Origin: Leptospirales bacterium
GTDB lineage: Bacteria; Spirochaetota; Leptospiria; Leptospirales; Leptonemataceae
Length of the DNA: 64,000 nucleotides
Assembly (NCBI GenBank): GCA_016788865.1
Contig: JAEUSB010000003.1
Location: 41,277 to 105,276 of the forward strand
Direction: 5' to 3'
The position numbers and the translations under genes are program-made. The first letter of the stretch is position 1, and each line of letters starts with the position of its first letter. Under the pieces are notes generated by a model. It was given only the letters and a program-made list of their open reading frames with translations, had not been told where the DNA came from and did no database searches. Shown here piece by piece: positions 6,527 to 50,112 of the stretch.

Positions 6527-6532
6527 TTGTTT

Positions 6533-9324: not shown

Positions 9325-11542
9325 TCAGACCTTTGCCCATCTGCTTCGACAGTGGCAGACAATGAGGAAAAGCATTATGGCCAAAAGGCCGAATCCGGAG
9401 AACGCTAGCAGCACAACCAATAACGTGGGTTTGTATTCAAATTCAACACGGTGTGTTCCCGGAGGAAGTTTGATCGTGCGAAAGATCAGGTTTGCAGCAT
9501 AAACCTCAACCTGAACTCCATCAATTCTTGCGATCCATCCGGGAAAGAACTTGTCACCAAGGACCAGGAAGGTGTCGCCCGCCGCATTTGTTTCAAGCAC
9601 TACCCGTTCCGGCTCATCTACAAGAAATTTGGCCGGTGCCAGGTGATCACCGGGGGAGGTTCTGGTAAGTAGCCCTTCCTGGGCTGGAATTTCGACTGCG
9701 GTTTGCAGGAGAGGGTTCAGAGATTTCGACATGAGGATTGCGCTTTCGCGGGGTCCTGAAACGGGGACAATTCTATTGGTCAGGTAGGCTCTTGGTAGTA
9801 CGGGCCCGCGCATTTGGAATAGCAAGTACTGATCAAGATGGTCACCCATGGCCAATAAGGTCGTTGATCCCAGGGTCTTGCTTACAAACTCAAGCATCTC
9901 TGGAGTCGCAACGGCATCATTGATCACAATGAAACTCTGCAACACTTTCGCTTTCGTCTCTGGGTCTGCTCTCAGCCAGAGGCCGCGATTCCCGAGTATC
10001 CATTTGACCGATCCGGCGCCTAATAGTTGTAAGGTGGTGTTCTTGGCCAATGCTTTGTAATCCAGATGGGTTTCTCCAAGCCAGATGCTGTCCTTGTTCT
10101 GGTTTCGCAGGTCTTCAGCAAGCAAGGACGAGAATAAGAAAGAGCGGTAGGTGTTGGAAGGTTCGTAGTCCGAGAGGTTCCGCCTGGAAGCCAGCATGCC
10201 AACTTTCTCGCAAGGTGCGAAGAATGAATTGCAGACGGAATCAAAACGATATGCCTTTTGATCCGGCAGGACACTTTGTGCGGTGCGCGCGTAGCCATCA
10301 ATGTACCGGGCCACATGGATAAATGCAACAGCTGGGAGATGTTTTTGCGGCACTACGACAGCCAGAACAAGCAAGGCCAGTAGCAAATTTCGGTGGGCCA
10401 ATTTGATTGAAGAAAATTTGCGCAAGAGGCGGTTGGCGTTTTGAATGAAGAAGGCCATACCTACAGATGCGGGAATAAGTAAAATATGGTTCGCGCGCTC
10501 AGGGATCCTGAACGCGGATCCCAGTGGGTAGTGATTGAAGTACCATTCAGCTATGGGACCCTGACGGCCCATCGAAAGCAGAGCAATAGGAATGGCCAGA
10601 CAGATCATGGCAACTACCAGTGGACGGTTTCGTGGAGATAAGAGCGCGCTTACTAGTCCGGCAGCGATTAACAATGGCAAGACGATTTTGGTGATCGTGT
10701 TGCCTCCCAGGAGATCGGGCAGGATGCTTCCTGCGGGTCGTCCGCCTAATCGATTGAACTGATGGATGGTCACTCCGATTTCTCCCCGGATTCCCAGCGC
10801 AAAGAACTCTCCGGCGGAGACCATCTGCGGGGCGGTGAGGATTGCGAAGAACACGATCGCCATTCCCAACAAGAGGGCGGTTCGTAATTTCTGCGTTTTC
10901 AATACGCGAGCGTTTTCAACGAGTGAGAAAATAAACACAAGTGCGCAGGCATGCAAAGCAAAGAACGCGTACTGTGGATACCCAGCGTACAGGAGCATGC
11001 TAAAGGCAAGGCATATCCCAAGTGCGCTTCTGACGCGCGGGCGGAAAGCAAACTTGCGAATTGCTAAGATGCATATCGGCAACCAGGTCACGCACGCCAG
11101 GAGATTTAATAGTTTGAAAGTATTTAGAAACTCTGCGGACAGTACAAACACCAGCGCCCCACTGAGAGATGGGACTTCCGAACCGAAAAGAACGCAGCAT
11201 GGCATAGGATCCGATCATCCCAAGGAAGAAATGAAACAGGATCTCGATGAATTGTCCCACCTCAAGACCCAAGAGAATTGTCAAAAGCAGATGTGGGGGG
11301 TATAGCAAGCGCGCTTGCAGTGTGCCAATTACGGGATTGCCCGATGAAATATACGGATTCCACAGAGGCAGCTCGCCATTCATGACACGATTGTGAAAAT
11401 ACTTCTGCATGGGATATTCGTAAGTGACAATGTCGGAGAAGATATACGTGCGGTCTATTCCGCCCAGGTTACTACGGGCCAATAGGAACAGTACGCCGAG
11501 GAGAATTAGAACAAGCGGCGTAAGGCGGCCAACCGATATCAA
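9325..11542 (-). pseudogene. YfhO-family GT-C membrane protein, frameshifted (copy 1)
   Basis: This is the first of six YfhO-like paralogues, which otherwise run 750-780 residues. Here the N-terminal part is in one frame and the rest in another. The first frame matches its paralogues through GSYAMLRSFR (near 11183), and the second resumes with GALVFVLSAEFL (near 11158). The spacing fits one extra base or two missing bases in that 25-bp stretch. The start is taken as TTG at 11542, preceded by a good GGGAGGAG site. The C-terminal soluble region keeps the family signature FFPGW and LPPGTHRVEFEY. It is either a genuine pseudogene, two split proteins, or a sequencing error. Confidence 0.8.
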
Positions 11543-11658
11543 GAGTTCTCCTCCCACACATCATTTCTGCGCGAAGGCATGCAGGGGGAAACTCTGTTTT
11601 TGCTCAGTTTTGTGCGCGGTGGTGGAAGTACCAGGTTCCTTGAAGATTATCCAACTCG

Positions 11659-11693
11659 CCTCCGCAGTCCAATCCATTGGACAGGTGCGGAGG
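11659..11693. repeat. Long imperfect hairpin between yfhO copies 1 and 2
   Basis: Outer arms CCTCCGCA/TGCGGAGG (8 bp) and inner arms GTCCAAT/ATTGGAC (7 bp) with a 3-base bulge form a stable stem. It follows the stop of copy 2, but no U tract follows on the - strand, so it could be an RNA-processing or attenuation element rather than a terminator. Confidence 0.6.
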
Positions 11694-11697
11694 GTAT

Positions 11698-13986
11698 TTA
11701 TTGCTCTTTTTTCAGCCGTTTCCGGCCCACCACAAGAAATGCAATTAGAATCGCGTACCCGACCAGCGATACTATGAATGAAACATAGAAATTCCACGGT
11801 TTGTAAACGAACTCTACTTCATGTTTCCCGGGTGATAACCGAATTGCTCGAAACATAATGTTAGCCGGATAGATCGTTGTGAGTTGACCATCGACTCTGC
11901 ACTCCCAGCCGGGAAAATACTTATCGTTCAGGACCAGGAATGCCTCACCCGCTGCGTCCGTCCGGATTACGATATGTTCGGGTTTATCGACAATAAAGTC
12001 CGCACGTTTCATATGATCGGCCGGGACGGTCTTCCCAGCCGTTAGTCGTAAATGCTCGGGTATTTCTAATACCGTTTGTTTCATGGGGTCAAACGGTGGT
12101 TCGAGGATTCGAGCGCTGTCTTTCGCACTTGCACTGGTTTCGATCCGATTGGTCAGATAGGCTCGGGATACTGTGCCTTCCAGCTTGAAGATAGTATACA
12201 GCGACGTATCTTTCGGTAAAAGCTCCAGAAGTATCTTCAGTTTCTCTTCGCCGACCTTCTCAAGAAGGCGAGCTCGCGCCGTATCATCCGGCACAATATC
12301 CACCGGGGTGACAAGACCTACCCCTTTGATTCTAGTCCGGTGTTCTGGAGTTGTTTTGCGCCAGAGCTCAGAGCTTGCCATAACCCACTTCACTGAGGCG
12401 GCTTGCAGTAGCTTCAGGGCGGCCGGATCCGTGAATGTATCAATATTGATATTTGTTTCCCCTAACCACAAATAGCCCTCAGGCAAGTTGCGCAGCTCGC
12501 TGGAAACCAGACGTGAAAACAAATAGGAGCGATACGTGTTTGCAGGTTCGTAGTCTGTGAGGCTGCGCCGTCTGGCTATCATTCCTGCCTTCTGGCAGGG
12601 CTCCAGTCCAAAATAGCATATTGTGTCGTACCGATCGTAGCTGCTTTCCGGAATAACCTTCCTCAGATTTTCCGCGTAATGATCAATGTGTTTTGAGATA
12701 TGCATGAAAGCCTGTGTTTTCAGTGCCTTTCCGGGCACCAGCAGCAGGGCCAGGGCAAACAAGAGCGCAACTGTCCCTGCCAATCGCAAACTTGTTTTCC
12801 TGATCTTCCGATCAACGATTACGAATGCCAGTCCAAGAAAGAAGGCTGAAGGGAACAATAGCAGGAATAGTAAGCGCTGGGGAACACGAAAGGCAGAGCC
12901 CAGTGGATAGTTGTTGAATATCCAGTTTGCGAACTCGCCGCCTGAAGCAAGCAAGGCGAATGGAATCACAATAGCAACCATTGTCAAGATGCGTAATCGA
13001 TATTCCCGCAACATTGCGTATCCCAGGATCGCACTGAGGGCTACCATCAGGGGCAGGGCGTACAAATGTGGGGGATATTGAATAGTTGGGGCTTGACCGG
13101 GTTGCGGCGGCACCATTTGAGCCCCTCCGTAGAGGTGCGGGAGCAATACAAGAATTGAACGACTGCCGAAGGGGTTGAACTGCTGCAAGGTTACACCGAC
13201 TTCACTGCGAAGACCTCTTGAGAATAGCTCGGCTGATGTGATAATTTGGGCACCGGAAACCAGGGCGAATAACGTTAAGGCGGTGCTGATCAACAGCAGG
13301 AAACGAACAGGGTGCCTCATAAGACGCCGCCGCAGATGGAACGCTCCAAACAGAAAAACGATTACGCAAACGTGTGCCGCGTAGTACGCGTATTGAGGGT
13401 AGCCGGCGTAAATCAGCATCGAGAAGCTGAATGCCAGGATGGCTGAAGTCGTAAGGTCTGGCCGATAAAGAAATTTCCGTATGGACCAGATGCAAACGGG
13501 CACCCAGGCCACTGTAGCAATGACATTGAAAGCGGCAAAGGCGTTCAGAAACTCGACTGAAAGCATGACGCTCAGGGCGCCAACCATGCTGGCCATGCGC
13601 TTCAACCGAAACGATCTCAACATTGCGTAAGATCCAATTACAGTTAGGCAGAAGTGGAAAATAACCTCGAGCAATTGGCCCACATTCAGTCCAAAGACCA
13701 GAGTCAAGATGAGCCGCGGTGGATAGATCAGGCGCGCCTCAAGCGTACCGATCATTGGATTACCCCCGGATTGGTACGCGTTCCAGAGCGGTAGTTCTCC
13801 ATTCAGCAAGCGTTCGTTGAAATACTGCTGCATTGGCAGATCGTAGCTGAGGTTATCAGCGAAGTTATAGGCTTCATCCAGCCGGTCGAGGTTGGATCTT
13901 CCGAGCAAAAACAGGAAGATCAATAGAATTAAGGCGAATAGCGGTGTTCGCCTGGAACGTCCCATGCTGCGAACCAGTTCAAGCAT
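11698..13986 (-). CDS. YfhO-family GT-C membrane glycosyltransferase (copy 2)
   Basis: An intact polytopic membrane protein of 762 residues from the ATG at 13986 (a TTG lies two codons earlier). The order of parts is: one N-terminal helix; a periplasmic loop with paired acidic residues and LNGELPLWNAYQSGGNP; about ten further helices up to residue 420; and a C-terminal periplasmic domain ending in FPGWECRVDG, LSPGKHEVEF and a last helix. In Bacillus and Listeria, YfhO proteins transfer sugars from polyprenyl phosphate to lipoteichoic acid outside the membrane. Here the acceptor is more likely LPS or another envelope glycan. It is the second of six paralogues on this strand. Confidence 0.82.
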   Translation of the reverse strand: MLELVRSMGRSRRTPLFALILLIFLFLLGRSNLDRLDEAYNFADNLSYDLPMQQYFNERLLNGELPLWNAYQSGGNPMIGTLEARLIYPPRLILTLVFGLNVGQLLEVIFHFCLTVIGSYAMLRSFRLKRMASMVGALSVMLSVEFLNAFAAFNVIATVAWVPVCIWSIRKFLYRPDLTTSAILAFSFSMLIYAGYPQYAYYAAHVCVIVFLFGAFHLRRRLMRHPVRFLLLISTALTLFALVSGAQIITSAELFSRGLRSEVGVTLQQFNPFGSRSILVLLPHLYGGAQMVPPQPGQAPTIQYPPHLYALPLMVALSAILGYAMLREYRLRILTMVAIVIPFALLASGGEFANWIFNNYPLGSAFRVPQRLLFLLLFPSAFFLGLAFVIVDRKIRKTSLRLAGTVALLFALALLLVPGKALKTQAFMHISKHIDHYAENLRKVIPESSYDRYDTICYFGLEPCQKAGMIARRRSLTDYEPANTYRSYLFSRLVSSELRNLPEGYLWLGETNINIDTFTDPAALKLLQAASVKWVMASSELWRKTTPEHRTRIKGVGLVTPVDIVPDDTARARLLEKVGEEKLKILLELLPKDTSLYTIFKLEGTVSRAYLTNRIETSASAKDSARILEPPFDPMKQTVLEIPEHLRLTAGKTVPADHMKRADFIVDKPEHIVIRTDAAGEAFLVLNDKYFPGWECRVDGQLTTIYPANIMFRAIRLSPGKHEVEFVYKPWNFYVSFIVSLVGYAILIAFLVVGRKRLKKEQ

Positions 13987-14064
13987 TCCCAAAGCGTGCT
14001 TATCTCGTCACTCCATCAACCTTTTTTTCAATGCTTCCGTTCGAATACACTAGCAAGCGGCTCA

Positions 14065-14089
14065 GGAGTCTTGTGGTCCACAAGACTCC
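14065..14089. repeat. Perfect 12-bp inverted repeat between yfhO copies 2 and 3
   Basis: GGAGTCTTGTGG, one T, then CCACAAGACTCC. It lies in the 200-bp gap behind copy 3. The one-base centre suits a DNA operator or cruciform better than a terminator, and no U tract follows. Confidence 0.65.
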
Positions 14090-14196
14090 AATCTCGGACT
14101 GTCCGCCCGGCATCGAGCGACGGCAATTTTCTCAGAGGGTTACAGACGGGAAAAGTAACTCCTTCAATTTTCTGTCATATATTAGATGTTAGGCGA

Positions 14197-16464
14197 TCAC
14201 GGTCGCGGTATCAGGCGTCTAACTACGGTCACGAGGAAAACAGTCAGTATTGTCAGATATCCAAGGGCTGCGATGGCAAGCAGCGCAATGAGGGTTTTAG
14301 GCCGATAAGTAAATTCAACGATATGTTTTCCCGGAGGAATCTTAATTGCGCGGAAAATTAGGTTGGCAGGAAAGATTTCGACGGCTTGCCCATCGACTGT
14401 TGCAACCCATCCCGGGAAGAACTTATCATTGAAAACCAGAAAAGTATGCCCGGATGAGTTGGTTGTGAATCCTACTCTTTCCGGTGAATCTGTTGCGAAA
14501 TCCACCGGCTGCATATGATCTTCTCGTTTAGGGATTTCCGGATACGATTCGGTAGCCTGGGATTCAATAACTGTCTCGACCATTGGATTTATCTTCTTGA
14601 GCAGTTCAAAGGATTCCGTTGGACCTGAGCTGAAGCGTATTCGGTTTGTGAGGTAAGCACGGGGAGCTACATCCTTCTCAACTTTGAATACATGGTAGAG
14701 AGGGAGTTGGCCTCCGAACCCTTCAAGCAGTTCTGTCGTAAAACCAGAGCCAAAGCGCTTCTGCATGATCAATTGTGCCGCGTGATTTACAACAACGCCG
14801 ATAGGTTTGGAAATTCCATTCTGTTCCATCTTGGCGCGGTCTTCAGGCGGCGTTTGCTTCCAGAGTCTGGAATCCCCCAGGATCCACTTAACCGAGCTCG
14901 CCCTTAGAATGTTCAATGCCTGCTGGTTGGTCAGGCTAATAAATGTGAGATTGGTCTCGCCGAGCCAGATATCAAATCCGGGACCATTGCCCACTTTTTC
15001 CGAAACCAATTGAGCGTGGAGAAAGGTTCTATAGGTATTTGCCGGTTCGTAGTCGTTCAAGCTCAAACGCCTTGCAACCATGCCGGCCTTCTGGCAGGGC
15101 TCCAGAAAGAAGAATGCGCAGATCGATTCGAAGCGATACGAACTCTGCGCCGGGATAGTCTCCTGGATATCCTTCGCGAATATATGCATCATGCCGGAAA
15201 CGTGGGGGAACGCCTGCGTGCGAAGCCTCTTCTGTGGAGCCATGATGGCAAGGAAGATCAACACCCATATGCTCAAAAAAACGCGAAAACGCAGAATACT
15301 GCCCGGTGCGGTTCTTTTGAATGCAATGACAACTTGTGTCAAAATTCCCACGAGGAACGCACAGGGTATGAGCAGTACCCAGGAGGCGCGCTGCGGATAG
15401 CGAAAAGACGATCCAAGGGGATAATGATAGTAGAACCATTCAGAAATGGGCGTGGCCGCGGCCATTGCAAGAAGGAGAAAGGGTATCCCCAACAAAATGT
15501 TTGCAATGATCTTTTCACGGAAGCGCCTGAGTCGCCAGTACCCCGTCACGATTCCGGCAATGATGACTAGATTAATAATCTGAAACTGCGGTTTGTATGC
15601 GCCACCAATTGCTTCGGGCAAGATCCTTAAGGCAGATCGGCCTCCGTATGGGTTGAACTGCTGAAAACTCAAGCCGGCTTCCCCTCGCCACCCGAGGGAA
15701 AAGAATTCGAACGAAGCAAACAGCTGCGGCGCGGTGACGACAAGCAGGCTCAATCCGGCCAGCACTGAGTAGGCGGCCAGGGGGGTGAGTTGTCGCCGCA
15801 GGCGTTTCCGTCTTAAATACAAGCCGCTCAGGAAGACGATCACGCAGGCATGCGCCGCAAAGAAACCGTACTGTGGATGACCGGCGTAGACCAGCATCGC
15901 ATGCGTGATTGCGATTGCCATGGCGCGCATGAAAGTTGGCCAGATCAGGAACAGGTTGATCGTCGCGATGCAGGCGGGTAACCAAACGATTGTTGCAATT
16001 AAATTCTGGGTAACGTTGAAGCTTGCAAGGTAGTCGTTTGCGAGCATGAAGAAGATTGCTCCCAGAATTGCCGGGCCGCTCTTCAACGAATAGGAGCGCA
16101 GCATGAAATACGTTCCGAGCAAGCCGAGGGCAAAATGAAAAACTAATTCGCAGAATTGTCCCCAATCCAGGCCCAGAAGCAATGTAAAGACAAGACGGGG
16201 AGGGTAAATCAGGCGATGCTGCAATGTTCCAATCGTGGGATTGCCCGCCGATTGATATGGATTCCAGAGGGGCAATTCGCCCTGGCGCAATCGAGAATTG
16301 AAGTATTCCTGCGCTGGCCAATCTTGCGTGACGTTATCGGCAAAGACGTACGAATCATCAAATCCCGCAAGGTTGGATCGAAATATGAGAAATAGGGCGC
16401 CGATGCAGCAAAGGAGAACTACCGGTGCATATCCTGCGAGAGATCTAGGGAGGAATCGCAGCAT
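14197..16464 (-). CDS. YfhO-family GT-C membrane glycosyltransferase (copy 3)
   Basis: A 755-residue paralogue with the same layout: a first helix, the loop motif RQGELPLWNPYQSAGNP, multiple helices, and a C-terminal domain with FFPGWVATVDG and IPPGKHIVEFTY. The membrane part differs clearly from its neighbours, whereas the two loop motifs are kept, as expected if acceptor or sugar specificity changed while the catalytic site stayed. It is intact, starts with ATG and is divergently arranged from the MBOAT gene with 99 bp between them. The 204-bp gap after its stop contains a long inverted repeat (14065-14089). Confidence 0.82.
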   Translation of the reverse strand: MLRFLPRSLAGYAPVVLLCCIGALFLIFRSNLAGFDDSYVFADNVTQDWPAQEYFNSRLRQGELPLWNPYQSAGNPTIGTLQHRLIYPPRLVFTLLLGLDWGQFCELVFHFALGLLGTYFMLRSYSLKSGPAILGAIFFMLANDYLASFNVTQNLIATIVWLPACIATINLFLIWPTFMRAMAIAITHAMLVYAGHPQYGFFAAHACVIVFLSGLYLRRKRLRRQLTPLAAYSVLAGLSLLVVTAPQLFASFEFFSLGWRGEAGLSFQQFNPYGGRSALRILPEAIGGAYKPQFQIINLVIIAGIVTGYWRLRRFREKIIANILLGIPFLLLAMAAATPISEWFYYHYPLGSSFRYPQRASWVLLIPCAFLVGILTQVVIAFKRTAPGSILRFRVFLSIWVLIFLAIMAPQKRLRTQAFPHVSGMMHIFAKDIQETIPAQSSYRFESICAFFFLEPCQKAGMVARRLSLNDYEPANTYRTFLHAQLVSEKVGNGPGFDIWLGETNLTFISLTNQQALNILRASSVKWILGDSRLWKQTPPEDRAKMEQNGISKPIGVVVNHAAQLIMQKRFGSGFTTELLEGFGGQLPLYHVFKVEKDVAPRAYLTNRIRFSSGPTESFELLKKINPMVETVIESQATESYPEIPKREDHMQPVDFATDSPERVGFTTNSSGHTFLVFNDKFFPGWVATVDGQAVEIFPANLIFRAIKIPPGKHIVEFTYRPKTLIALLAIAALGYLTILTVFLVTVVRRLIPRP

Positions 16465-16563
16465 TCCTGATTGTTGCTCGATTGATCGGGGTGCAAGGAT
16501 TTTTTACGGTCGCATTTCTTGTTGACAGGAGTAAAAATGTAGCTTGATCCTGTTTTCCAGGGC

Positions 16564-17964
16564 ATGCAGTTTCAGTCAGCGCAGTTTCTTTTCTTCTTTA
16601 TAGCTGTCTTCATCCTCAACGCCTTCCTGAATCGCTTTCAAACAACATCCTGGCCTAGAAACGCGGTACTCGTTATTGCCAGCTATATCTTTTATGCTGC
16701 CTGGAAGCCTGCGTTTCTAATTCTGATTTTGTTCGTGACCGGGTTCAACTACCTGACCGGTAGTGCACTGGCGTCGAATAACGTCCAACGGCGAAAAAGT
16801 TTTCTTGTGTTCGCGATCGCAGTCAATCTTGGTTTACTGTTCTATTTCAAATACTTTGCTTTCGCGATGCATTCTGTCTTTGTGCTTCTGGGTTGGATCG
16901 GATTTTCACAGGGCGATTTTACTACTAACATCATTTTGCCGATTGCCATCTCATTCATAACATTCGAGGCCATAAGCTATAATGTGGATGTATACAGGGG
17001 TAGTTTTCGGCCTGAATCGAATTTGCTCTCCTTCGCGTTGTACTTTGCATTTTTCCCGCGATTGGTTTCCGGTCCAATTGTTCGACCGTATCAAATATTA
17101 CCGCAGCTGAAGCGAGCGCGTAATCGACTGCATATCCGTTCCGGCTTGTTTCTGGTGGTTCAGGGGTTATTCAAGAAAGTCTGCGTTTCTGACTTGATAA
17201 GCTATTTCCCCAATGCGGTTTTCAAGAACCCGGATGCACATTCGGCCCAGGACATCATCCTCGCAGTGATGGCCTTCACGGTGCAAATTTATTGCGACTT
17301 TTCTGGTTATACGGACATAGCGATTGGTGTTGGGCGTATGCTTGGAATTCGCCTTCCACAAAATTTTCGCCTGCCGTACACAGCCCTCAATATTCGAGAA
17401 TTCTGGCAGAGATGGCATATAACGTTGTCCACGTGGCTTCGCGACTATCTCTACATAGGACTGGGGGGAAACCAGACCGGTCATACGTACAGAAACCTGT
17501 TCCTGACTATGCTGCTCGGTGGTTTGTGGCACGGAGCGTCATGGAACTTTGTGATTTGGGGGGCTTTGCACGGATCCGTCTTGGTGGCCTATCATTGGTT
17601 CTCTCGCTTTCGCCCAAACTTCAATATCCCGTGGCCCATTTCCTGGGTGATTACTCAGCTGGTCGTGGTCGTTGCCTGGATCTTCTTCCGCGCTGATACG
17701 TTTACAACCGCATCCCAAATGATAACCGGTGTCTTTCAGCCGACCCGCTATACTGGATTTTTCACAAGAGATGCGGATCTGGTGGTCTATACAATTCTGG
17801 GATTCTATGTTTTTCACATTGGCGCAACGTTATTCCGCCGATTCAAGCGCCCAACATATAAGTATGGTCGTTTTTTTCTGGGTGCTTATCAGGCCTTATT
17901 GTTTCTCGCGGTATTGTTTGCAATTAAACCAGATGACACTCCTTTCATCTATTTTCAGTTTTAA
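16564..17964 (+). CDS. MBOAT-family O-acyltransferase (AlgI-like)
   Basis: A 466-residue integral membrane protein of the MBOAT family, which takes acyl groups from a cytoplasmic donor and passes them to a sugar outside the membrane. It has about 10-11 helices, the conserved block NIREFWQRWHITLSTWLRDY, and the active-site His in LGGLWHGASWNF (about residue 323). AlgI (alginate acetylation), DltB and PatA are relatives. The next gene, two bases downstream, codes for an AlgJ/SGNH-like partner, as expected for a two-protein acetyl-transfer unit. It interrupts the yfhO array on the opposite strand. Confidence 0.9.
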   Translation: MQFQSAQFLFFFIAVFILNAFLNRFQTTSWPRNAVLVIASYIFYAAWKPAFLILILFVTGFNYLTGSALASNNVQRRKSFLVFAIAVNLGLLFYFKYFAFAMHSVFVLLGWIGFSQGDFTTNIILPIAISFITFEAISYNVDVYRGSFRPESNLLSFALYFAFFPRLVSGPIVRPYQILPQLKRARNRLHIRSGLFLVVQGLFKKVCVSDLISYFPNAVFKNPDAHSAQDIILAVMAFTVQIYCDFSGYTDIAIGVGRMLGIRLPQNFRLPYTALNIREFWQRWHITLSTWLRDYLYIGLGGNQTGHTYRNLFLTMLLGGLWHGASWNFVIWGALHGSVLVAYHWFSRFRPNFNIPWPISWVITQLVVVVAWIFFRADTFTTASQMITGVFQPTRYTGFFTRDADLVVYTILGFYVFHIGATLFRRFKRPTYKYGRFFLGAYQALLFLAVLFAIKPDDTPFIYFQF

Positions 17965-17966
17965 TC

Positions 17967-19586
17967 ATGCGACCAGGTAGAAAGCACATTCGGTTAGGTA
18001 TCGTTCAGGCACTATCCGCGCTCATTGTACTGGTTGCGGCACATTTCTTTGTGAAGCGTTTTGTCGAGGCGACGGCGTTTTCTCCCGGTTTCTTTATTTA
18101 CGCCCCTGGCGGTGAGTCGCTCGCGTACGAGGAATTTGAAAAGACTTCCGGCCGGAAGGTTGCTTTCGTTGGCAATTCTGTGATGGCGGCCCTCGATTTT
18201 CCGAGGTTACGGAAAGTCATCAAGCGTCATTACGGCGAAGACATCGAAGCCTTTAACTTTGGACGACCAGCCCAGGGTGTGGGCGACTATAGAGTAATCC
18301 TGTCACGAATGGCTGACTTGAAGCCTGACCTGATTGTAATGCAAATCCACGAAATCTCAATTGCCGGTCAGGTGTTTAGAACAAACGTCCGCGGGCAGAT
18401 TGCAAATCGTACAGTTCTGGAACGCGTTGGTCCTGAGTTGTTCCTTGATTCCTATGGCGTCGAGGGCTTTTTTCAATCACCCCTGTACCGGCTTCCGCTT
18501 TATCCGTATCGGGATCCATTTCGTCAGACTCAATTGCAGCGATCCATTTACTTCGGTTCTACGTTAAGCGACGTTCAAAGCCGATTCTGGCGTCATTTGT
18601 TCCAGGGGTCGGATCCTTTCCTGGGGACACCGCAAGACGCACGCAGCAAGCACCAGGAAGCCATTCCCGAACTAGAACCGCGCGACAAGAAAATAAAGGG
18701 ATACGGTATCGAGCTCAATCCGCTTCAAATCAAATTGTTTGAAGATATGCTCGAGGATCTGAAGGCAATGGGTGTACCATATTTCGTCTACCTCCAACCG
18801 GTGCCCCCGGCTATGGCTGACGCTCCCACTGGTGACTTCTTTCGACAGACACTGAGGAAACACAATGTTGAGTTTACGGACATTCGCAACGACTATCCGG
18901 AGAGTCTCTTCACCACAATGGCCGTTCATATGCGCGATTCAAGACACATGTTCGACCTGTTATTCGCAACTCAGCCGGCGGTAAATGTAGGATTCTCTGA
19001 AATAGACTGGAAAGAGGCTGGCCTGACGGTGGCCGTTCGTTCGCGATTTGACCTGCGAAGTTTCGACGAGTATGGAATGTTCAAACAGCTAAACATTGAA
19101 GGCGACCTCAAACGGAGAAACTACTTTCTATTCTCCGGTGACGGGCTGATCAACGTGAGACCAGGTTCACCCGTTCAAATGGATCAGAAGGTTATTTCTG
19201 ATTTTGCCGCCGGGCTGCCTGTTGCCATCGAGGACGAGATGCATTTTTGGGCACCAGCGCGAATAATGGAGAAACTCAAAGTGATTCGTTTCGAGAAAGG
19301 TCCGCCGGCCGCCGATATCGCAGCCTTGAAGCAACTCAGGTTCTATTCTGTTTCCGTTCCAGTAGGAAGAATTTCCGACTTATTTCAGGTCTCAGTGAAT
19401 GGAGAATTCATTCCGGAGCTGGATTCGATGGAGGCTCCCATGAACCACGGCTACTGGCTTGCGGATCGTGCTACGGGCCGGGTCACATTGATCCTTCCGC
19501 GCGGCCACTCGGTCAACAGCGTTCAAGTGTCGTACATCAACCAGGAGCGGGCATTAGGTAGTCGATTGAAAGCGCTTATCAAGTAG
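17967..19586 (+). CDS. SGNH-like (AlgJ/DUF1574-type) partner of the MBOAT acyltransferase
   Basis: A 539-residue protein with one N-terminal membrane helix (about residues 10-28) and a periplasmic body. Block I of the SGNH fold reads FVGNSVMA (about 69-76), with GNS in place of GDS, and a NFGRPAQGVGDY block follows, a pattern seen in AlgJ/AlgX-like acetyltransferases. The last 150 residues form an extra domain rich in beta strands. It sits two bases behind the MBOAT gene. Leptospiral MBOAT genes are often paired with DUF1574-type SGNH proteins, and this may be one. Probable role: final O-acyl transfer to surface glycan. Its 3' end overlaps the facing yfhO copy by 8 bp. Confidence 0.7.
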   Translation: MRPGRKHIRLGIVQALSALIVLVAAHFFVKRFVEATAFSPGFFIYAPGGESLAYEEFEKTSGRKVAFVGNSVMAALDFPRLRKVIKRHYGEDIEAFNFGRPAQGVGDYRVILSRMADLKPDLIVMQIHEISIAGQVFRTNVRGQIANRTVLERVGPELFLDSYGVEGFFQSPLYRLPLYPYRDPFRQTQLQRSIYFGSTLSDVQSRFWRHLFQGSDPFLGTPQDARSKHQEAIPELEPRDKKIKGYGIELNPLQIKLFEDMLEDLKAMGVPYFVYLQPVPPAMADAPTGDFFRQTLRKHNVEFTDIRNDYPESLFTTMAVHMRDSRHMFDLLFATQPAVNVGFSEIDWKEAGLTVAVRSRFDLRSFDEYGMFKQLNIEGDLKRRNYFLFSGDGLINVRPGSPVQMDQKVISDFAAGLPVAIEDEMHFWAPARIMEKLKVIRFEKGPPAADIAALKQLRFYSVSVPVGRISDLFQVSVNGEFIPELDSMEAPMNHGYWLADRATGRVTLILPRGHSVNSVQVSYINQERALGSRLKALIK

Positions 19587-21837: not shown

Positions 21838-21997
21838 AGACGATTGCTCTCCAGGATCATAGCATGACAACTGTTTTTGGCATACTCAAGGAAGGGATGG
21901 CGTGCCCTTGCGGGAGGCGGTCGATTTTATTTCCTCAAATCTCCGAGAATGCTAGTATGTATCACGCATCCGGTGGATTGTGACTGCGGTTTAAACG

Positions 21998-22924
21998 ATG
22001 ACGAAAGGAACGATATTGCTGACCGGGGCATCGGGATTCATAGGCAGTCACATTGCAGAAACGCTCTTGCTAGGGGGGTGGAAGGTTGTGTGCTTGAGAC
22101 GATCGACGTCAAATACCTGGAGACTATCAGCACAACCAAACATCATCTGGCATGACATAGATCTGAATCAGGACCTGGCCCCGCTATTCGTAGAGCATAG
22201 CTTTGATGCTGTGATCCACGCTGCAACGGCTTATGGTAAGAAAGGTGAAGACAATTCTAGCCTGCTGTTCGCAAACGTGTATTTCCCTTTGCGTTTGCTG
22301 GATCTTGCAATCAAGCATCATGTTTCGCTTTTCGTCAGCACAGACACCTTTTTCAAAACAGCGGTGCACAACTATTCGTATATGCAAAACTATACCCTTA
22401 GCAAATCCCATTTTTCCGATTGGATGGCTTTGGCCGGAGACGCAATCAAACTGGTAAGTCTTTCGCTCTTTCAGGTCTACGGTGAACGCGATTCGGACAC
22501 CAAGTTTATTACCAACTTGCTTCTGAAGTTGCAACTCGGAGTGCCCGCAATGGACTTTACCAGGGGTGAGCAAAAGCGAGACTTCATTTATGTGAAAGAT
22601 GTTGCCGCAGCGTATCAGTCCGTCATTGACGCGCGTGCATCTATCAAACCGGGGCTGCATCTCTTTGATGTTGGTACTGGCGCCGAAACCGAGCTCCGGA
22701 AATTTATTGAACTCGCGGCACAGCTGACGGGCTCCAGGACCTGCCTGAACTTTGGGGTAATCCCGTACCTTGCGGATGAGATATTCTCGTCCCGAGCCAA
22801 CGTTGAACCCTTCAAGACTGCTTTCGGTTGGAAGCCCGAGTTTTCTTTGAATGCCGGCCTAAAAAGAACAGTTGATTGGTTTGCCGAGAATGCCCATCTT
22901 TATGCTAGCGTCTCAGGACCCTGA
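21998..22924 (+). CDS. rfbJ: CDP-abequose synthase-like NAD-dependent reductase
   Basis: A 308-residue SDR with TGASGFIGSH (8-17) and the catalytic pair in YTLSK. It resembles Salmonella RfbJ, the CDP-4-keto-3,6-dideoxyhexose C4-reductase, as remembered: LLDLAIKH, STDTFF, a central NYSYMQNYTLSKSHF segment, RGEQKRDFIYVKDV, DVGTGAE, and a C-terminal FGWKPEF. It would finish the pathway started by rfbFGH 17 kb upstream and yield CDP-abequose or a C4 epimer. It stands alone between two yfhO copies on the other strand. Paratose or another dideoxyhexose product cannot be excluded. Confidence 0.75.
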   Translation: MTKGTILLTGASGFIGSHIAETLLLGGWKVVCLRRSTSNTWRLSAQPNIIWHDIDLNQDLAPLFVEHSFDAVIHAATAYGKKGEDNSSLLFANVYFPLRLLDLAIKHHVSLFVSTDTFFKTAVHNYSYMQNYTLSKSHFSDWMALAGDAIKLVSLSLFQVYGERDSDTKFITNLLLKLQLGVPAMDFTRGEQKRDFIYVKDVAAAYQSVIDARASIKPGLHLFDVGTGAETELRKFIELAAQLTGSRTCLNFGVIPYLADEIFSSRANVEPFKTAFGWKPEFSLNAGLKRTVDWFAENAHLYASVSGP

Positions 22925-25181
22925 GACCATTGGCTATCAGGGTTACAAAGAAAATCAGATAACCTACCCCAGAGCCGGCAAGTGCAATCAGCAGAAAACG
23001 GGGTCTATAAAGAAACTCTACGTGATGTTCGCCGGACGTTAGGCGCACAGAGCGGTACAATATGTTGGCGGGTAAAATGGGACTGGGATTGCCATCAACT
23101 CGGCATTCCCAGCCGGGGAAAAACGCATCGTTCAAGACAAGAAAGGAATCACCAGTTGTCCGTGTCCGCACAATGACGTGCTCTGGCTCATCAAGGACGA
23201 ATTCAGCTGGCCGGAATGCATCCGCCAGCGACAGCGTTCCTTGCGCCATTCTGGCATAGTCCTTAAGGTTTTCGGGTTCCTCAATCACAGTTTCTCGAAG
23301 CGGGTTGAAGTCCCCTTTCATTCGCTGGAACGCATCGCCAGCTGATTGCGCAACGTTTATACGATTCGTTGTATAAGCGCGAGGGAGGCTGCCATCGATC
23401 CTGTACACTTCGAATAGCGATTCTAAGTTCTGGATATATGATTGTAGTAATTGCATCTGCATGGGTTCGAGTCTCTGATTCAAGAGATTGGTTAGCCGTG
23501 AATTGGGAATTTCCCCGGATCTACGAAGGGCTGCCACGGAGGACAATTGTGCTTGTTTTTCCGGTGTGAGTTTTGACGAGAAGACTGAATCGGCAATTAC
23601 CCAATTTACTGATGCGGCTTGAAGGAAGGAAATCGTTCTGGAATCCAGGAGCGCGTCGAACGATAACTTAAGATCGCCGAGCCAGACGTCATTGCGGGCT
23701 TGCCGGCGCAATTCTTCCGAAACAAGGTTTGCATAAAGATAAAACCGGTATCCATTTGACGGCTCGTACTCAGATAGGCTGCGGCGTCTGGCCATAAGGC
23801 CGGCTCTGCGATAAGGCTCCGTCTGGAATCCGGTGATACTCGCAAAGCGTTGCTGGCTCCCGGACGGGATCAGGGCCTGCAGGTCACGAACAAAAGCGCC
23901 CATGTAAGGGGCAGAATGCAAGAAAGCATGAGAATGAAATCGCTTATTCGGAAGGAGAAGGAACAACAGGAGCCCAACCGCAACAGGAAAGGATAGCCAT
24001 GCCAGAGATACTCCCTTGATAGCCGGCGTTCTGAGTCTCAAACCACATTGAACCAGTAGACCCATCGCATAGGCACAGGGGAAGAGCATCAGATAAAGCG
24101 CGCGCACCGGCTGTCGGAAAGCATTTCCGAGCGGATAATGGTCGAACATCCATCTCGCAAAAGGTGTATGGGTACCCATCGCAAGGCAGGCGGCGGCGCC
24201 CCCGATCAGCACCATGGTCGCGATGATTAAGCGATGGTTTCGAAATCGAATCCAGCCCACAATAAATCCAACTGGGACCATCGCTGTTATGATATACATA
24301 GGGCCGGGGTCCGTGGACGCGGAGTACATGTAGGCGATCAAGCCTGCCGCAGGATATCCGCCATACTTACTGAACTGTTCAAATGTAACACCTATCGCTC
24401 CGCGAATTCCGAGTCCAAAGAACTCTGCCGCGGCTGCCAATTGTGGAAGCGTAATGAGCACAAACAGGGATGCAGCGATACTCAAGTACATTGCCACACT
24501 TGCAACCTTGGGCCGGAGCCGGGTCCAATACGACACAAGGCCGGCCAGGAAAACTGCAATGCAAAGATGCATCGCGTAATACGCGAACTGCGGGTATCCG
24601 GCATAGATCAGCATCGAGAAAGCCAGCGCGAGGATTACGGATCGTGCCGGGCCTGGTCGGATCAGAAAGAACCGAATGCTCCAGACGCAAACAGGTACCC
24701 AGGAAAGCGTGGCGAAGACGTTATGCGAAAACGTAGTGTAATGAAACTCTGAGGCAAGCAGAACGGAAATTGAACCAACAAAAGCTGCGGGCTGCCGCAA
24801 CCCAAACGACCGCAGCATTGCGAAAGTTCCAAACACGGCCAGAAAGAAGTGGAAAACTATTTCAACCAACTGCCCCCATTCAAGGCCAAGGAGGGCGTAA
24901 AAGACGAGTCGTGGTGGGTACAACAGGCGCTGCTGGAGCGTTCCGATTACCGGATTGCCCGCTGCCTGATACGGGTTCCAGAGCGCCAGTTCACCCTGGG
25001 ACAATCGCTCGTGAAAATAGTGAACCATGGGTAGTTCGAATGAAACGTCGTCGTGATTTGTATTTGTTGCGAAATCAGCCCAGGCATCGAAGCGAACAAT
25101 GTCGGAACGACTGTATAGAAACGCAACGCAGGAAAGCAAAAGCAGCAGCGGGATTCCGTTCCGAAATCGCAGAGAGAACAT
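22905..25181 (-). CDS. YfhO-family GT-C membrane glycosyltransferase (copy 5)
   Basis: Fifth paralogue, 758 residues, intact and starting with ATG. It keeps the first-loop motif SQGELALWNPYQAAGNP, FFPGWECRVDG near residue 690 and LTSGEHHVEFLY. Its opening and its acidic NHDDVSFELP segment are close to copy 4. It is only 16 bp behind copy 6 on the same strand, so copies 6 and 5 form an operon. Its 3' end overlaps the converging rfbJ-like gene by 20 bp. As with the other copies, the sugar and acceptor are not known. Confidence 0.82.
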   Translation of the reverse strand: MFSLRFRNGIPLLLLLSCVAFLYSRSDIVRFDAWADFATNTNHDDVSFELPMVHYFHERLSQGELALWNPYQAAGNPVIGTLQQRLLYPPRLVFYALLGLEWGQLVEIVFHFFLAVFGTFAMLRSFGLRQPAAFVGSISVLLASEFHYTTFSHNVFATLSWVPVCVWSIRFFLIRPGPARSVILALAFSMLIYAGYPQFAYYAMHLCIAVFLAGLVSYWTRLRPKVASVAMYLSIAASLFVLITLPQLAAAAEFFGLGIRGAIGVTFEQFSKYGGYPAAGLIAYMYSASTDPGPMYIITAMVPVGFIVGWIRFRNHRLIIATMVLIGGAAACLAMGTHTPFARWMFDHYPLGNAFRQPVRALYLMLFPCAYAMGLLVQCGLRLRTPAIKGVSLAWLSFPVAVGLLLFLLLPNKRFHSHAFLHSAPYMGAFVRDLQALIPSGSQQRFASITGFQTEPYRRAGLMARRRSLSEYEPSNGYRFYLYANLVSEELRRQARNDVWLGDLKLSFDALLDSRTISFLQAASVNWVIADSVFSSKLTPEKQAQLSSVAALRRSGEIPNSRLTNLLNQRLEPMQMQLLQSYIQNLESLFEVYRIDGSLPRAYTTNRINVAQSAGDAFQRMKGDFNPLRETVIEEPENLKDYARMAQGTLSLADAFRPAEFVLDEPEHVIVRTRTTGDSFLVLNDAFFPGWECRVDGNPSPILPANILYRSVRLTSGEHHVEFLYRPRFLLIALAGSGVGYLIFFVTLIANGLRVLRR

Positions 25182-25197
25182 ATAGCTGGTTCACAGC

Positions 25198-27516
25198 CTA
25201 TGTGCCTTCTGGCAATTGCTTTTTGCTGCTGTGCCTGCGTTTGAAAAACCAGAAGAAGCTCACGAGCAAAATGAACAAGTGTGTGCTGGCTGCTACCATG
25301 CAAGCAGCGAAAAGAACGCCTGGTCTATATGTGAATTCAACCCGATGAGTCCCCGCCGGAAGCCGTATGGCCCGAAACAAGACGTTGGCTGGAAAAATCG
25401 GGGTCTTGTTGCCGTCGACGGTGCATTCCCATCCAGGAAAGAATTTGTCGTTGAGCACCAGAAATGACTCCGCAACAGTTTCCGTGTGCAGAATGATTTG
25501 CTCAGGCAGGTCCACCTCGAACCTCGCTGGTTTCATATGGTCTGTCGGGTGAATTGCGTAGAGCTCGTGCGTCACTCCTGCTGGTAGTTCAAGAATAGTT
25601 GTTGATGCAGGATCAGAGGAATTCTGCAACTTGAGAGCACTGTCCTTCGCGTTGAGGCTGAGCTCGATTCGATTTGAAGTGTAGGCACGCGGCAACGGGT
25701 CGTTGAGTCGAAAAACCTGGTAAAGTGGCAAGGGATTCGCCTGTGCAATGGCAAGCACGGCAGGATCCACTTCCCTGGCCAGGAAGCGGATCATCCGTGA
25801 ATCCGGGATGCTTCCGGCCATTTGAACTGAATCCATACGCGCAATTCTGGCTTTGAGCTGAGGGTCAACATCTCGCCAGAAAACGGCATCCCCCAGTACC
25901 CAGCCAACTGAAGCAGCTCTCAAAAGTCGTATAACGTTAGGATCTGCGAGGGTAGCAAAGCTGATTTCCGTGTTACCCAGCCATACCCATCCGGGATTCT
26001 GGTTGCGAAGTTCTGGCGAAAGGACTCTCGCCAGAAGGTACGAACGGTATGTATTGGCCGGTTCGTAATCGGAAAGGCTGCCCCTTTGGGCAAGCATGCC
26101 GGATTTCTTGTACGGCTCTGTGGCGAATCCAGTAATATTGATAGAGCGCGTGCGGCTGCCCGGTGGCAGGATACTTCCCATGCTTTGAGCAACATCCATG
26201 GCGTAAGGGGATATCTGCAGAAATACTTGCGGCCTAAAATACTTTCCGGGCAAAAGTGATGCGCAAATGATAACGAGCACCACGATTGAACCAAGGTCAT
26301 TCTGGATGCCGGACCGTTTGCGCCACTGTGAAATGATTTGAACGAGGCCACTGGCACAGAGCGAAATGCCGAACGCCGCTATGAACAACAGGATCGCCTT
26401 TGCGCGGAGGGGAACGCGAAATGTTGAACCGAGTGGATAATAATCGTATATCAAGTCCGCGAAAGGTGATGCAGTTCCCATTGCCAGCAATGCGAAAGGT
26501 AACGCTACTAGAAGCATGACGGTCGAAACCTTGCGGTAACGTGCTTGCGTTAGCCCGAACAGAAACCCGGAGAAAACAATGAACGAGATGATGTACGTAG
26601 TTTGATGCCCGGCCAGAACTCTCCAGGCTTCCGGATAGGCCTTCTCCCCGGTAAAGACCAGGGGAATAAGCGTCCAGAAGGGTCGCCCGCCCAAATTTTG
26701 AAACTGCTCCTTTGTGACTCCAACTTCTCCGCGCAGACCTTGCGCGAAGAATTCCGCAGACGACAAGACCTGAGGTCCGGCAAGTAGTGTGAACAAAATT
26801 AGCGATAGCACCAGCGGCCCAAGAAGGTGTCGAGGAATTCGCACCACGGATCTTGTTCGTAGCGGTATGGAGAAAAAGCAAATGATAGCGCAAGCGTGCA
26901 ACGTGTAATACCCGTACTGCGGATACCCGGCATAAACAAGCATGCTGAAGGTAACCCCAACCCAGAGGCCACGCCACAGATTGCCATGGATCGAGAGTCG
27001 CCTGACGCTGAGCACGCACACCGGTACCCAGGCAATCGTCGCAAGAACATTATGCGAATAGCTGCTACCCAGGAATTCCGCAGATAGTAACACAGCGATC
27101 GCGCCAACGGCAGCCGGCCCACTCTTGACCCGGAGCGAACGGAGCATGCCAAAAGTTCCGAAAACACCAAGCGCAATGTGAAATAGTATCTCAATCCACT
27201 GGCCGTGTTCAACCCCCAAGAGTAGCGTAAAGATTAACCGCGGAGGGTACAGCAATCTTGCTTCGAGCGTGCCAATCGTTGGATTCCCCGCTGATTGATA
27301 CGGATTCCATAAGGCCAGTTCCCCTTTAGCAAGCCGTTCGTTGAACATCTTTTGCATTGGAAAATCGTACGAGACGTCATCATATTCAACGCGTTCGAAT
27401 AATTCAAAGAGGGGTTCCTCGCGAAGCAGGTTTGATCGGCTGACCAGGAAGAGCGCAATTGCGGAAATGATTACAAGGAACCAGACCCTGTGTTGTGTCA
27501 GATCTGGAAACTTCAT
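25198..27516 (-). CDS. YfhO-family GT-C membrane glycosyltransferase (copy 6)
   Basis: Sixth paralogue, 772 residues from the ATG at 27516; the open frame begins at a TTG at 27549. It has the motifs AKGELALWNPYQSAGNP, KFFPGWECTVDG and LPAGTHRVEFTY, about a dozen helices and an intact C-terminal domain. It leads the copy 6-copy 5 operon and is divergent from the GT2-SGNH operon, so the roughly 100 bp between them should hold promoters for both. No clear consensus was found there. Confidence 0.82.
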   Translation of the reverse strand: MKFPDLTQHRVWFLVIISAIALFLVSRSNLLREEPLFELFERVEYDDVSYDFPMQKMFNERLAKGELALWNPYQSAGNPTIGTLEARLLYPPRLIFTLLLGVEHGQWIEILFHIALGVFGTFGMLRSLRVKSGPAAVGAIAVLLSAEFLGSSYSHNVLATIAWVPVCVLSVRRLSIHGNLWRGLWVGVTFSMLVYAGYPQYGYYTLHACAIICFFSIPLRTRSVVRIPRHLLGPLVLSLILFTLLAGPQVLSSAEFFAQGLRGEVGVTKEQFQNLGGRPFWTLIPLVFTGEKAYPEAWRVLAGHQTTYIISFIVFSGFLFGLTQARYRKVSTVMLLVALPFALLAMGTASPFADLIYDYYPLGSTFRVPLRAKAILLFIAAFGISLCASGLVQIISQWRKRSGIQNDLGSIVVLVIICASLLPGKYFRPQVFLQISPYAMDVAQSMGSILPPGSRTRSINITGFATEPYKKSGMLAQRGSLSDYEPANTYRSYLLARVLSPELRNQNPGWVWLGNTEISFATLADPNVIRLLRAASVGWVLGDAVFWRDVDPQLKARIARMDSVQMAGSIPDSRMIRFLAREVDPAVLAIAQANPLPLYQVFRLNDPLPRAYTSNRIELSLNAKDSALKLQNSSDPASTTILELPAGVTHELYAIHPTDHMKPARFEVDLPEQIILHTETVAESFLVLNDKFFPGWECTVDGNKTPIFPANVLFRAIRLPAGTHRVEFTYRPGVLFAACMVAASTHLFILLVSFFWFFKRRHSSKKQLPEGT

Positions 27517-27613
27517 CTCTCTGATTCTCTTTAAACTCTCTCGCCGCAACTTTTTTTCATTGTTATCCGCCTTGCAGTGACGGTTATTTCAAGGTTGACA
27601 TAGGGGCTGTCGC

Positions 27614-28573
27614 ATGTGGCATGAAAGTTCGATGGCAGCAAAGAAGAAACTCCTTTCCATCATTGTACCCGTTTTCAATGAGGCTGACAATATCGAAAGG
27701 ACATATCAAACCCTTTTGCGAACCCTGAAGCTGCTACCCGGATATGAATACGAGATCATATTCACGGATAACCACAGTACGGACAATTCTTTTGCCATCC
27801 TGGAGCAGATGGGCAAGAAAGACCGTCGGGTAAAGGTTATACGCTTCTCACGAAATTTTGGTTATCAGAAATCTATTCTGACGGGCTACTTGAGCGCATC
27901 CGGTGCGGCTGCAATTCAAGTAGACTGCGATCTTCAGGATCCACCGGAGATAATCCTTGAGTTTGTAAGGAAATGGGAAGAGGGGGCCGTGGTTGTCTAC
28001 GGTGTGCGAAGAACCAGAAAGGAAAACTGGTTCATTAATGCGCTTCGAAAAATTTTTTATAGGATCGTTGCGACATTAAGTGAAGATACTCTTCCGGTAG
28101 ACGCTGGGGATTTTCGCCTGGTGGATCGTAAGATTATTGAAGAGCTGAAACGGATGGAAGATGCTACTCCGTACTTGCGCGGCGCCATTGCCACCATGGG
28201 TTACAAACAGATAGGGATACCATATGACCGAGCAGAACGAGATATCGGAGACAGTAAGTTTTCGTTTGGCGGATATTTCAAGCTGGCAATCGACGGGATC
28301 GTCAACCATTCGGTCATTCCTCTAAGGATCGCAACATACGTTGGGCTTGTGATCTCGGTAATTACGTTTCTGGCAATCCTCGTCTATATTGCCCTCCGGA
28401 TTTTTGTCGGTGCAAACTGGCCGTCCGGATTTACAACCATTACAATTTTCTTATTACTGTCTATTAGCTTGAACGCACTCTTTCTGGGTGTTATTGGCGA
28501 GTATCTAGCAAGAATCTTTAAACAGGTCAAGAAGCGATCGCTTACTCTTGTCGAAAAAACGGTAAACGTCTAG
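27614..28573 (+). CDS. GtrB-like family 2 glycosyltransferase
   Basis: A second polyprenyl-phosphate sugar synthase candidate of 319 residues. The GT-A domain has IIVPVFNEADNIE at 16-28, FTDNHS at 50-55 and VDCDLQDPPE at 103-112, and two membrane helices fill the C-terminus. The ATG at 27614 follows an AGGGG site; an ATG six codons in is the alternative. It starts a + strand operon with three SGNH proteins, and the first of these begins immediately after its stop codon. With only one GtrA in the window, both GT2 enzymes may share that flippase, or another lies elsewhere. Confidence 0.85.
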   Translation: MWHESSMAAKKKLLSIIVPVFNEADNIERTYQTLLRTLKLLPGYEYEIIFTDNHSTDNSFAILEQMGKKDRRVKVIRFSRNFGYQKSILTGYLSASGAAAIQVDCDLQDPPEIILEFVRKWEEGAVVVYGVRRTRKENWFINALRKIFYRIVATLSEDTLPVDAGDFRLVDRKIIEELKRMEDATPYLRGAIATMGYKQIGIPYDRAERDIGDSKFSFGGYFKLAIDGIVNHSVIPLRIATYVGLVISVITFLAILVYIALRIFVGANWPSGFTTITIFLLLSISLNALFLGVIGEYLARIFKQVKKRSLTLVEKTVNV

Positions 28574-30596: not shown

Positions 30597-30670
30597 GAGC
30601 GTTCTCGCCGTAGGTTTCTCGATGTTGAAAAAGGGCTGGGCACGTTCAATTGATTGCGGAATGTCTGACT

Positions 30671-35352: not shown

Positions 35353-35411
35353 GACGGTTGTTTTTCTGCACGGGGGAGCGCTGTCAAGGATTGAGCGGTT
35401 CACCTAAGTCT

Positions 35412-43646: not shown

Positions 43647-43708
43647 TCCCCAGGAAATATTTTTACTTTTGACATACATTGATTCATCGCTTCCTATAGC
43701 CTGGCACA

Positions 43709-50099: not shown

Positions 50100-50112
50100 T
50101 GACAGGCTGTCA
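50100..50112. repeat. Short palindrome TGACAGGCTGTCA
   Basis: It sits between the divergent lipase and GT39 genes and touches the GT39 ATG. It has the same core as the element at 35412. Possible operator. Confidence 0.45.

Follow-up and report, generated by a model that had tools for sequence, protein, structure and literature searches.

Three-component glycosylation systems are usually depicted with a single synthase, a single flippase, and a single transferase. We analyzed 64,000 nucleotides from a Leptospirales bacterium (contig JAEUSB010000003.1, positions 41,277 to 105,276; hereafter the window, with negative coordinates lying to its left), which carry, within positions 9325 to 27549, an array of six homologous genes for YfhO-type GT-C proteins (Y1 to Y6), every one on the minus strand according to open reading frame (ORF) calls and pairwise comparison. 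Among described systems, CsbB, GtcA, and YfhO act together in the glycosylation of teichoic acids in Bacillus, Listeria, and Staphylococcus (PMC8035078, PMC5836110; these and the other papers are cited here from extracts). Components of such systems can be shared: one GtrA serves three systems in Lactococcus lactis and one GT2 serves two GT-C proteins in Listeria 4b (PMC8035078), and several mycobacterial arabinosyltransferases use one donor (PMC11127046), so that a common sugar supply or flippase has precedent. Besides, loci with several GT-C proteins are mentioned for O-antigen side-chain systems (PMC11127046), and stepwise addition has been proposed for the Pgf proteins of Streptococcus mutans (PMC5856776). 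The array is best read as an expanded variant of the three-component system, likely with one shared donor supply and many transferases, as far as its sequence indicates.

The array is real, and partly as a sequence-only reading of the window had described it. Six paralogues of about 750 to 780 residues had been announced; gene number and strand hold, but only five genes are open (755 to 783 amino acids), whereas Y1 is frameshifted. It consists of two overlapping ORFs (11000 to 11557, 185 amino acids; 9325 to 11205, 626 amino acids). Compared with the open copy of a sister genome, a congeneric metagenome-assembled genome (Spirochaetia bacterium, JAIOPQ010000077), Y1 has a net 2-nucleotide gap near position 11170, adjoining a (TC)3 run, and its remaining gaps are multiples of three; the frameshift could be an assembly error. 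The count of six also falls short of the genome, which has eight copies: Y0 lies on the same contig 4 kb left of the window (-4386 to -2044), and Y7 is unlinked, on contig C107. Their identities to Y2 are 26% and 38%, respectively. Since E-values among the copies reach 5.9e-188, their homology is not due to chance. Two loop motifs, GEL(P/A)LWN(P/A)YQ and FFPGW...DG, are present in all six array proteins as had been noticed, with the variants GEI in Y4, NPYI in Y1, and YFPGW in Y2.

The proposed membership in YfhO (PF09586; 835 profile positions; cut-off, 28.5 bits) holds in part. In the scan of window ORFs, Y2 and Y3 scored over the cut-off, whereas Y6, Y4, the C-terminal ORF of Y1, and Y5 fell below it; a search of the genome placed six of the eight copies over it, the exceptions being Y1 and Y5. 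The match is confined to a stretch of 43 to 76 residues near the C terminus (profile positions 758 to 835 or part of them), and the profile search gave no full-length match for any array copy, unlike two families of the phylum (f22 and f45) that match from positions 2 to 54 through to positions 830 to 835. Placement among the GT-C proteins agrees with a structure model of Y3 (predicted local distance difference test score, 92.9), which has a predicted GT-C (GT-C-A) fold with the first extracytoplasmic loop following the first transmembrane segment (TM). Fold matches found by Foldseek include AftD, STT3, PglB, ArnT, and Pmt; mycobacterial AftD (6w98) is the best for the whole protein and the C-terminal domain alike, and the model has the AftD-type layout of a GT-C core with a matching C-terminal domain. 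The acidic first-loop site expected to be shared appears in all six sequences as D-x4-[DE]-x-P. Asp-43, conserved in at least 90% of a 49-sequence alignment, may be the catalytic residue. Each array protein has about 8 to 12 hydrophobic segments.

Pairwise identity among the window copies is 33 to 49%. They had been said to differ in the membrane part, but their differences do not lie mainly there. With Y1 represented by the open sister copy, mean pairwise identity is 0.60 in the first loop (residues 31 to 95), 0.40 in the membrane region (96 to 430), 0.36 in the soluble middle (431 to 640), and 0.51 in the C-terminal domain (641 to 725), so the soluble middle diverges more than the membrane region. 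Sister orthologues are 57 to 68% identical for Y1 to Y6, 75% for Y0, and 59% for Y7; because the orthologues of Y1 to Y6 are closer than the paralogues, the duplications are old. Each of Y1 to Y7 pairs with one sister gene in a maximum-likelihood tree (bootstrap, 100). Among the deeper branches, only the cluster of Y4, Y5, and Y6 has support; the rest lack resolution. The Y2 clade also takes in a metagenome protein, one of three found: an orthologue of Y2, an orthologue of Y5, and a third of a separate lineage. The longest contig listed for each of the three has 26,448 bases, and from this equal size we infer that they share one contig.

The array forms the central part of a 39.8-kb island (-4386 to 35403). 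Gene order in the sister genome is the same from a major facilitator superfamily (MFS) gene at 35466, across the array, and far beyond Y0, with three exceptions: Y1 and Y2 have changed places, there are two SGNH genes versus three in the window, and an additional membrane protein of 743 amino acids is present. The latter (L037, 4665 to 6896) has no Pfam family over the cut-off. In a third congener (contig C75, 4,275 bases; L147, 1 to 4275), the matches to the two flanks, the MFS gene and g141 (the left-hand neighbor of Y0), are 97 bp apart, and a glycogen synthase gene comes next as in the window; no match to the Y proteins was found in that genome. The island is therefore present or absent as a whole block in these three genomes. 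The third congener has its own rfbFGH-SDR-GT2-GtrA cluster (SDR, short-chain dehydrogenase/reductase) on another contig, adjoining a 665-amino-acid protein with about 10 hydrophobic segments. A survey of copy number among 41 relatives, the window's genome included, found the array subfamily in that genome and the sister only; in six others a single gene per genome matches weakly (23 to 48 bits).

One GtrA and two GT2 genes had been noticed in the locus, and rightly so, although all three lie outside the array interval. By family and fold, a polyisoprenyl-phosphate GT2, a flippase, and GT-C proteins thus stand together in one locus. With a probability of roughly 0.56, we read the Y copies as dedicated final transferases drawing on one shared lipid-phosphate-linked sugar supply that the island is predicted to make. 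RfbF, RfbG, and RfbH would yield CDP (cytidine diphosphate)-4-keto-3,6-dideoxyglucose, which one SDR would reduce, and a split transketolase with a second SDR would put a two-carbon branch on part of the 4-keto sugar. GT2a and GT2b would then load the sugars onto undecaprenyl phosphate, and the single island GtrA would flip the lipid-sugars. Y0 to Y6, together with the unlinked Y7, would differ in their acceptor sites and so glycosylate an extracytoplasmic glycan at different positions, whether simultaneously or in sequence, a scheme that recalls the proposed assembly of mycobacterial cell-wall arabinan. A pair of proteins including a membrane-bound O-acyltransferase (MBOAT) would O-acylate the product. 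The acceptors may be different sites on one glycan, different glycans, or proteins. In both species Y7 is encoded apart from the island, and the stretches around it (19.0 and 16.0 kb) gave no homologue of the island GT2s or GtrA.

Several points weigh against this reading. The genome carries three more GtrA-family genes, and a sister gene of this family (C40:9128-9487) shares a contig with the sister's Y7, at a distance of about 11.7 kb and just outside the searched stretch; because of it we lowered the probability from 0.58 to 0.56. Y7 may thus have its own flippase, and contig C107 of the window's genome gave no GtrA match. Two GT2s and two SDRs could mean at least two donors, each for a subset of copies. 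GT2a of the sister (L038, 8035 to 8906; contig C70, about 43034 to 43905) is split by a 70-nucleotide gap relative to the window gene, with residues 126 to 149 missing and the frame shifted, so that the sister copies may depend on GT2b alone, or the assembly may be wrong. Furthermore, first-loop conservation may reflect general catalysis and not one donor, the YfhO label comes from the C-terminal stretch, the fold is predicted from one modelled copy, and activity, donor, and acceptor are all predictions.

A bolder proposal, which we consider rather unlikely, is that the island is a complete assembly line for a surface glycan built one residue at a time outside the cytoplasm. Its seven YfhO-type and several other GT-C proteins would make one linkage each from two lipid-linked 3,6-dideoxy sugars, of which one has a two-carbon branch set by the island's own split transketolase, making the island a spirochaete counterpart of mycobacterial arabinan assembly that arose by tandem expansion of one AftD-like family.

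To the left of the array, a plus-strand operon holds the genes for RfbF, RfbG, and RfbH followed by those for GtrA, an SDR, the split transketolase, and GT2a. The array itself is interleaved with plus-strand genes (Table 1): the MBOAT pair between Y3 and Y4, an SDR gene between Y4 and Y5, and GT2b and the SGNH genes right of Y6. The 539-amino-acid protein beside the MBOAT is presumably its extracytoplasmic acyl-transfer partner. At the left end of the island are Y0 and a 585-amino-acid membrane protein; the orthologue of the latter in the sister reaches 40 bits against the array profile. In another relative (G020; L165, 3876 to 7980), the order is rfbF-rfbG-SDR-rfbH; since its SDR (5760 to 6650), 39% identical to that between Y4 and Y5, sits between rfbG and rfbH, the window enzyme is tied to the same CDP-sugar and is probably a reductase of the CDP-dideoxy sugar. 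From the presence of a transketolase among the genes of an RfbFGH operon we predict a 3,6-dideoxy sugar with a two-carbon branch. This branching stays a prediction because, according to a review, transketolases of this kind belong chiefly to antibiotic pathways, and it is YerE-like enzymes that occur in those of lipopolysaccharide (PMC12247030, extract). In a survey of the 41 relatives (E ≤ 1e-30), matches to its C-terminal subunit other than the sister's 79% were 30 to 40% identical, and the genome's second transketolase is 34% identical; a split transketolase inside an rfbFGH operon had no close match among them other than the sister's.

Table 1. Array copies and other genes of the island, by window position
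Feature	Position	Strand	Support
Y1, YfhO-type GT-C, frameshifted	9325-11557	-	C-terminal ORF PF09586 22.5 bits; sister orthologue open, 58%
Y2, YfhO-type GT-C, 764 aa (amino acids)	11698-13992	-	PF09586 32.8 bits; sister orthologue 68%
Y3, YfhO-type GT-C, 755 aa, copy used for model	14197-16464	-	PF09586 32.2 bits
Y4, YfhO-type GT-C, 763 aa	19579-21870	-	PF09586 26.0 bits; sister orthologue 65%
Y5, YfhO-type GT-C, 758 aa	22905-25181	-	PF09586 17.9 bits; sister orthologue 59%
Y6, YfhO-type GT-C, 783 aa	25198-27549	-	PF09586 28.1 bits; sister orthologue 57%
Membrane protein, 423 aa, 9 hydrophobic segments	293-1564	+	No Pfam family; possible GT-C
RfbF, glucose-1-phosphate cytidylyltransferase	1631-2395	+	TIGR02623 462.9 bits, cut-off 300.25
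RfbG, CDP-glucose 4,6-dehydratase	2392-3483	+	TIGR02622 467 bits, cut-off 278.45
RfbH, CDP-4-keto-6-deoxyglucose 3-dehydrase	3541-5082	+	NF011936 705.2 bits, cut-off 423
GtrA-type presumed flippase of lipid-linked sugar	5094-5483	+	PF04138 65.4 bits, cut-off 26.1
SDR, sugar ketoreductase/epimerase	5480-6526	+	PF01370 109.4 bits; sister 68%
Transketolase N-terminal subunit	6527-7342	+	PF00456 97 bits
Transketolase C-terminal subunit	7339-8289	+	PF02779, PF02780; sister 79%
GT2a, polyisoprenyl-phosphate sugar synthase (PgfS/ArnC-like), 2 C-terminal TMs	8286-9230	+	NF047588 204.6 bits (<500), PF00535
MBOAT, DltB-like membrane O-acyltransferase	16564-17964	+	PF03062 92.5 bits; TIGR04091 154.8 bits (<375)
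539-aa protein, one N-terminal TM, beside MBOAT	17967-19586	+	No Pfam family; sister 73%
SDR	21998-22924	+	PF01370 112.6 bits
GT2b, polyisoprenyl-phosphate sugar synthase (PgfS/ArnC-like)	27614-28573	+	NF047588 214.1 bits (<500); sister 89%
TM-anchored SGNH/GDSL hydrolase 1	28574-29566	+	PF13472
TM-anchored SGNH/GDSL hydrolase 2	29586-30596	+	PF13472
TM-anchored SGNH/GDSL hydrolase 3	30650-31708	+	PF13472
Predicted GT-C (PMT_2-like), 550 aa	32253-33905	-	PF13231 21.2 bits, below cut-off 26.1
Homologue of 32253 protein, 523 aa, island right end	33832-35403	-	Sister's 32253 orthologue 34%; no Pfam over cut-off

GT2a and GT2b were the only nucleotide-sugar transferases recognized in the Pfam scan of the ORFs taken as island genes. 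The same scan recognized no Wzx, Wzy, or ligase family, which is not proof of absence because several island membrane proteins are without a family; nor was a soluble glycosyltransferase, a polymerase, or a gene for a glycosylated target protein recognized in the island, or an arabinose-donor gene among its scanned ORFs. Outside the island, the window holds a further PMT_2 GT-C gene (50112 to 51587; 72.8 bits) and a gene for a single 474-amino-acid protein with two stretches matching the ABC (ATP-binding cassette) transporter ATPase family (46101 to 47525).

Of the alternatives, protein O-glycosylation of the Pgf kind survives best, and we still regard it as unlikely. The GT2s and YfhO/PgfM-like proteins would then modify secreted proteins, with one residue or target set per copy. 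PgfS is the best NCBIfam model of both GT2s and PgfM2 that of five of the six array proteins, Y5 having none; STT3 and Pmt are high-ranking fold matches; and in S. mutans the modification of Cnm and WapA needs pgfS, pgfM1, pgfE, and pgfM2, a pgfM2 mutant giving an intermediate form (PMC5856776, extract). However, all scores are far below the equivalog cut-offs (PgfS [NF047588], 214.1 and 204.6 against 500 bits; PgfM2, at most 21.8 against 1500; PgfM1, at most 18.5 against 1400), and fold rank is uninformative on the acceptors of the Y proteins. No target gene was recognized in the island, whose DltB-like MBOAT and genes for dideoxy sugars suggest that the product is a polysaccharide.

The sequence-only reading had favored a combinatorial or serotype-switching system, with the copies as alternative final transferases that come into use in varying sets. 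We find this quite improbable. It would suit the concentration of differences outside the first loop and C-terminal domain, the swapped order of Y1 and Y2, the frameshifts in Y1 (beside the (TC)3 run) and in the sister's GT2a, and the metagenome set of Y2 and Y5 orthologues with a lineage not seen in the other two genomes. Yet every copy is retained as an orthologue between species. A search of window positions 1 to 36000, in which (TC)3 is below the reporting size, gave no invertible or slippage repeats and no recombination between copies; inverted repeats were absent, the only tandem repeat was weak, and the copies had no exact word of more than 22 nucleotides in common. Beside the Y1 shift there is no homopolymer of more than 4 bases. 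Recent gene conversion among copies was not found either. Without inverted repeats or recent gene conversion, there is no good sign of combinatorial switching, and the claim is not supported.

It is still less probable that the copies are largely equivalent, decaying by-products of old duplications. Y1 is frameshifted, and the copies evolve faster than the better conserved donor genes (RfbF, 92% identical in the sister; RfbG, 81%; RfbH, 87%; GtrA, 78%; GT2b, 89%), but such change is not special to them, as the 293-1564 protein and one SGNH protein (63% each) diverge as much. Moreover, six separate lineages are maintained in both species, Y1 has no second frame-breaking gap, and for each of Y1 to Y7 the proportion of nonsynonymous differences from the sister (0.21 to 0.29) is well below that of synonymous ones (0.78 to 0.83, which is saturated). 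That the YfhO-type proteins carry or flip lipids or lipid-linked sugars instead of acting as transferases is hardly credible: they have many hydrophobic segments and their transferase activity is predicted, but the modelled GT-C fold with acidic first-loop residues, the lack of any transporter among Foldseek matches with E up to 0.1, and the separate GtrA already in the island argue otherwise.

Tandem arrangements occur elsewhere. With the array profile we gathered 76 loci from named genomes, drawn from the best 80 of at least 510 relatives, and 17 had at least two matches inside about 22 kb. The sister accounts for 4 of the 76 and 3 of the 17, which leaves 14 of 72 loci, on 13 contigs. Multiple matches were seen in Deltaproteobacteria, Chisholmbacteria, and Acidobacteria, among others, with up to six per locus, some of them fragments. 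Tandem YfhO-like arrays thus recur, and that of the window is among the largest seen. Six loci of other phyla (L047, L050, L064, L065, L094, and L098) have at least three tandem YfhO-like matches; in tblastn searches (E, 1e-8) the island GT2s matched two of them (L047 and L094) and the island GtrA none.

With seven transferases of one family beside a single flippase and a pair of synthases, and with an empty site known from a congener, the island is a place to ask how GT-C enzymes of the same fold split acceptor sites among themselves while drawing on a shared supply of lipid-linked sugar. It also opens the question of what the YfhO C-terminal domain recognizes, for which AftD is the nearest solved match.

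Compared with described systems (published features again from extracts), the island resembles CsbB/GtcA/YfhO in its GT2 with C-terminal TMs, single GtrA, for which sharing is precedented, and YfhO-family GT-C proteins. It differs in having seven of the latter, with one more elsewhere in the genome, instead of one, and in its dideoxy-sugar genes and spirochaete host. The S. mutans pgf operon likewise unites a GT2 with an epimerase-type SDR and at least two YfhO-like proteins (PMC5856776), but the island falls below the Pgf cut-offs and adds dideoxy-sugar and acylation genes and more copies. As in periplasmic O-antigen side-chain systems (gtr; ORF12 GT136), a GT-C would add a lipid-linked monosaccharide outside the cytoplasm (PMC11127046); O-antigen backbone genes were not recognized in the island, however, and its proteins belong to the YfhO family, not Gtr or GT136. 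The yersiniose and erwiniose pathways (YerE, ErwE) also start from CDP-4-keto-3,6-dideoxyglucose, and their loci likewise encode a thiamine enzyme (PMC12247030), whereas here a split transketolase takes the place of a YerE-like decarboxylase and branching is predicted. Finally, mycobacterial arabinan assembly (AftA-D, EmbA-C) has several GT-Cs per polyprenyl-phosphate donor (PMC11127046) and offers in AftD the best fold match, although AftD has 1312 residues versus 755, is 14% identical over the structural alignment, and works with different donor genes, and the island transferases, unlike the mycobacterial ones, are one lineage-restricted family in tandem.

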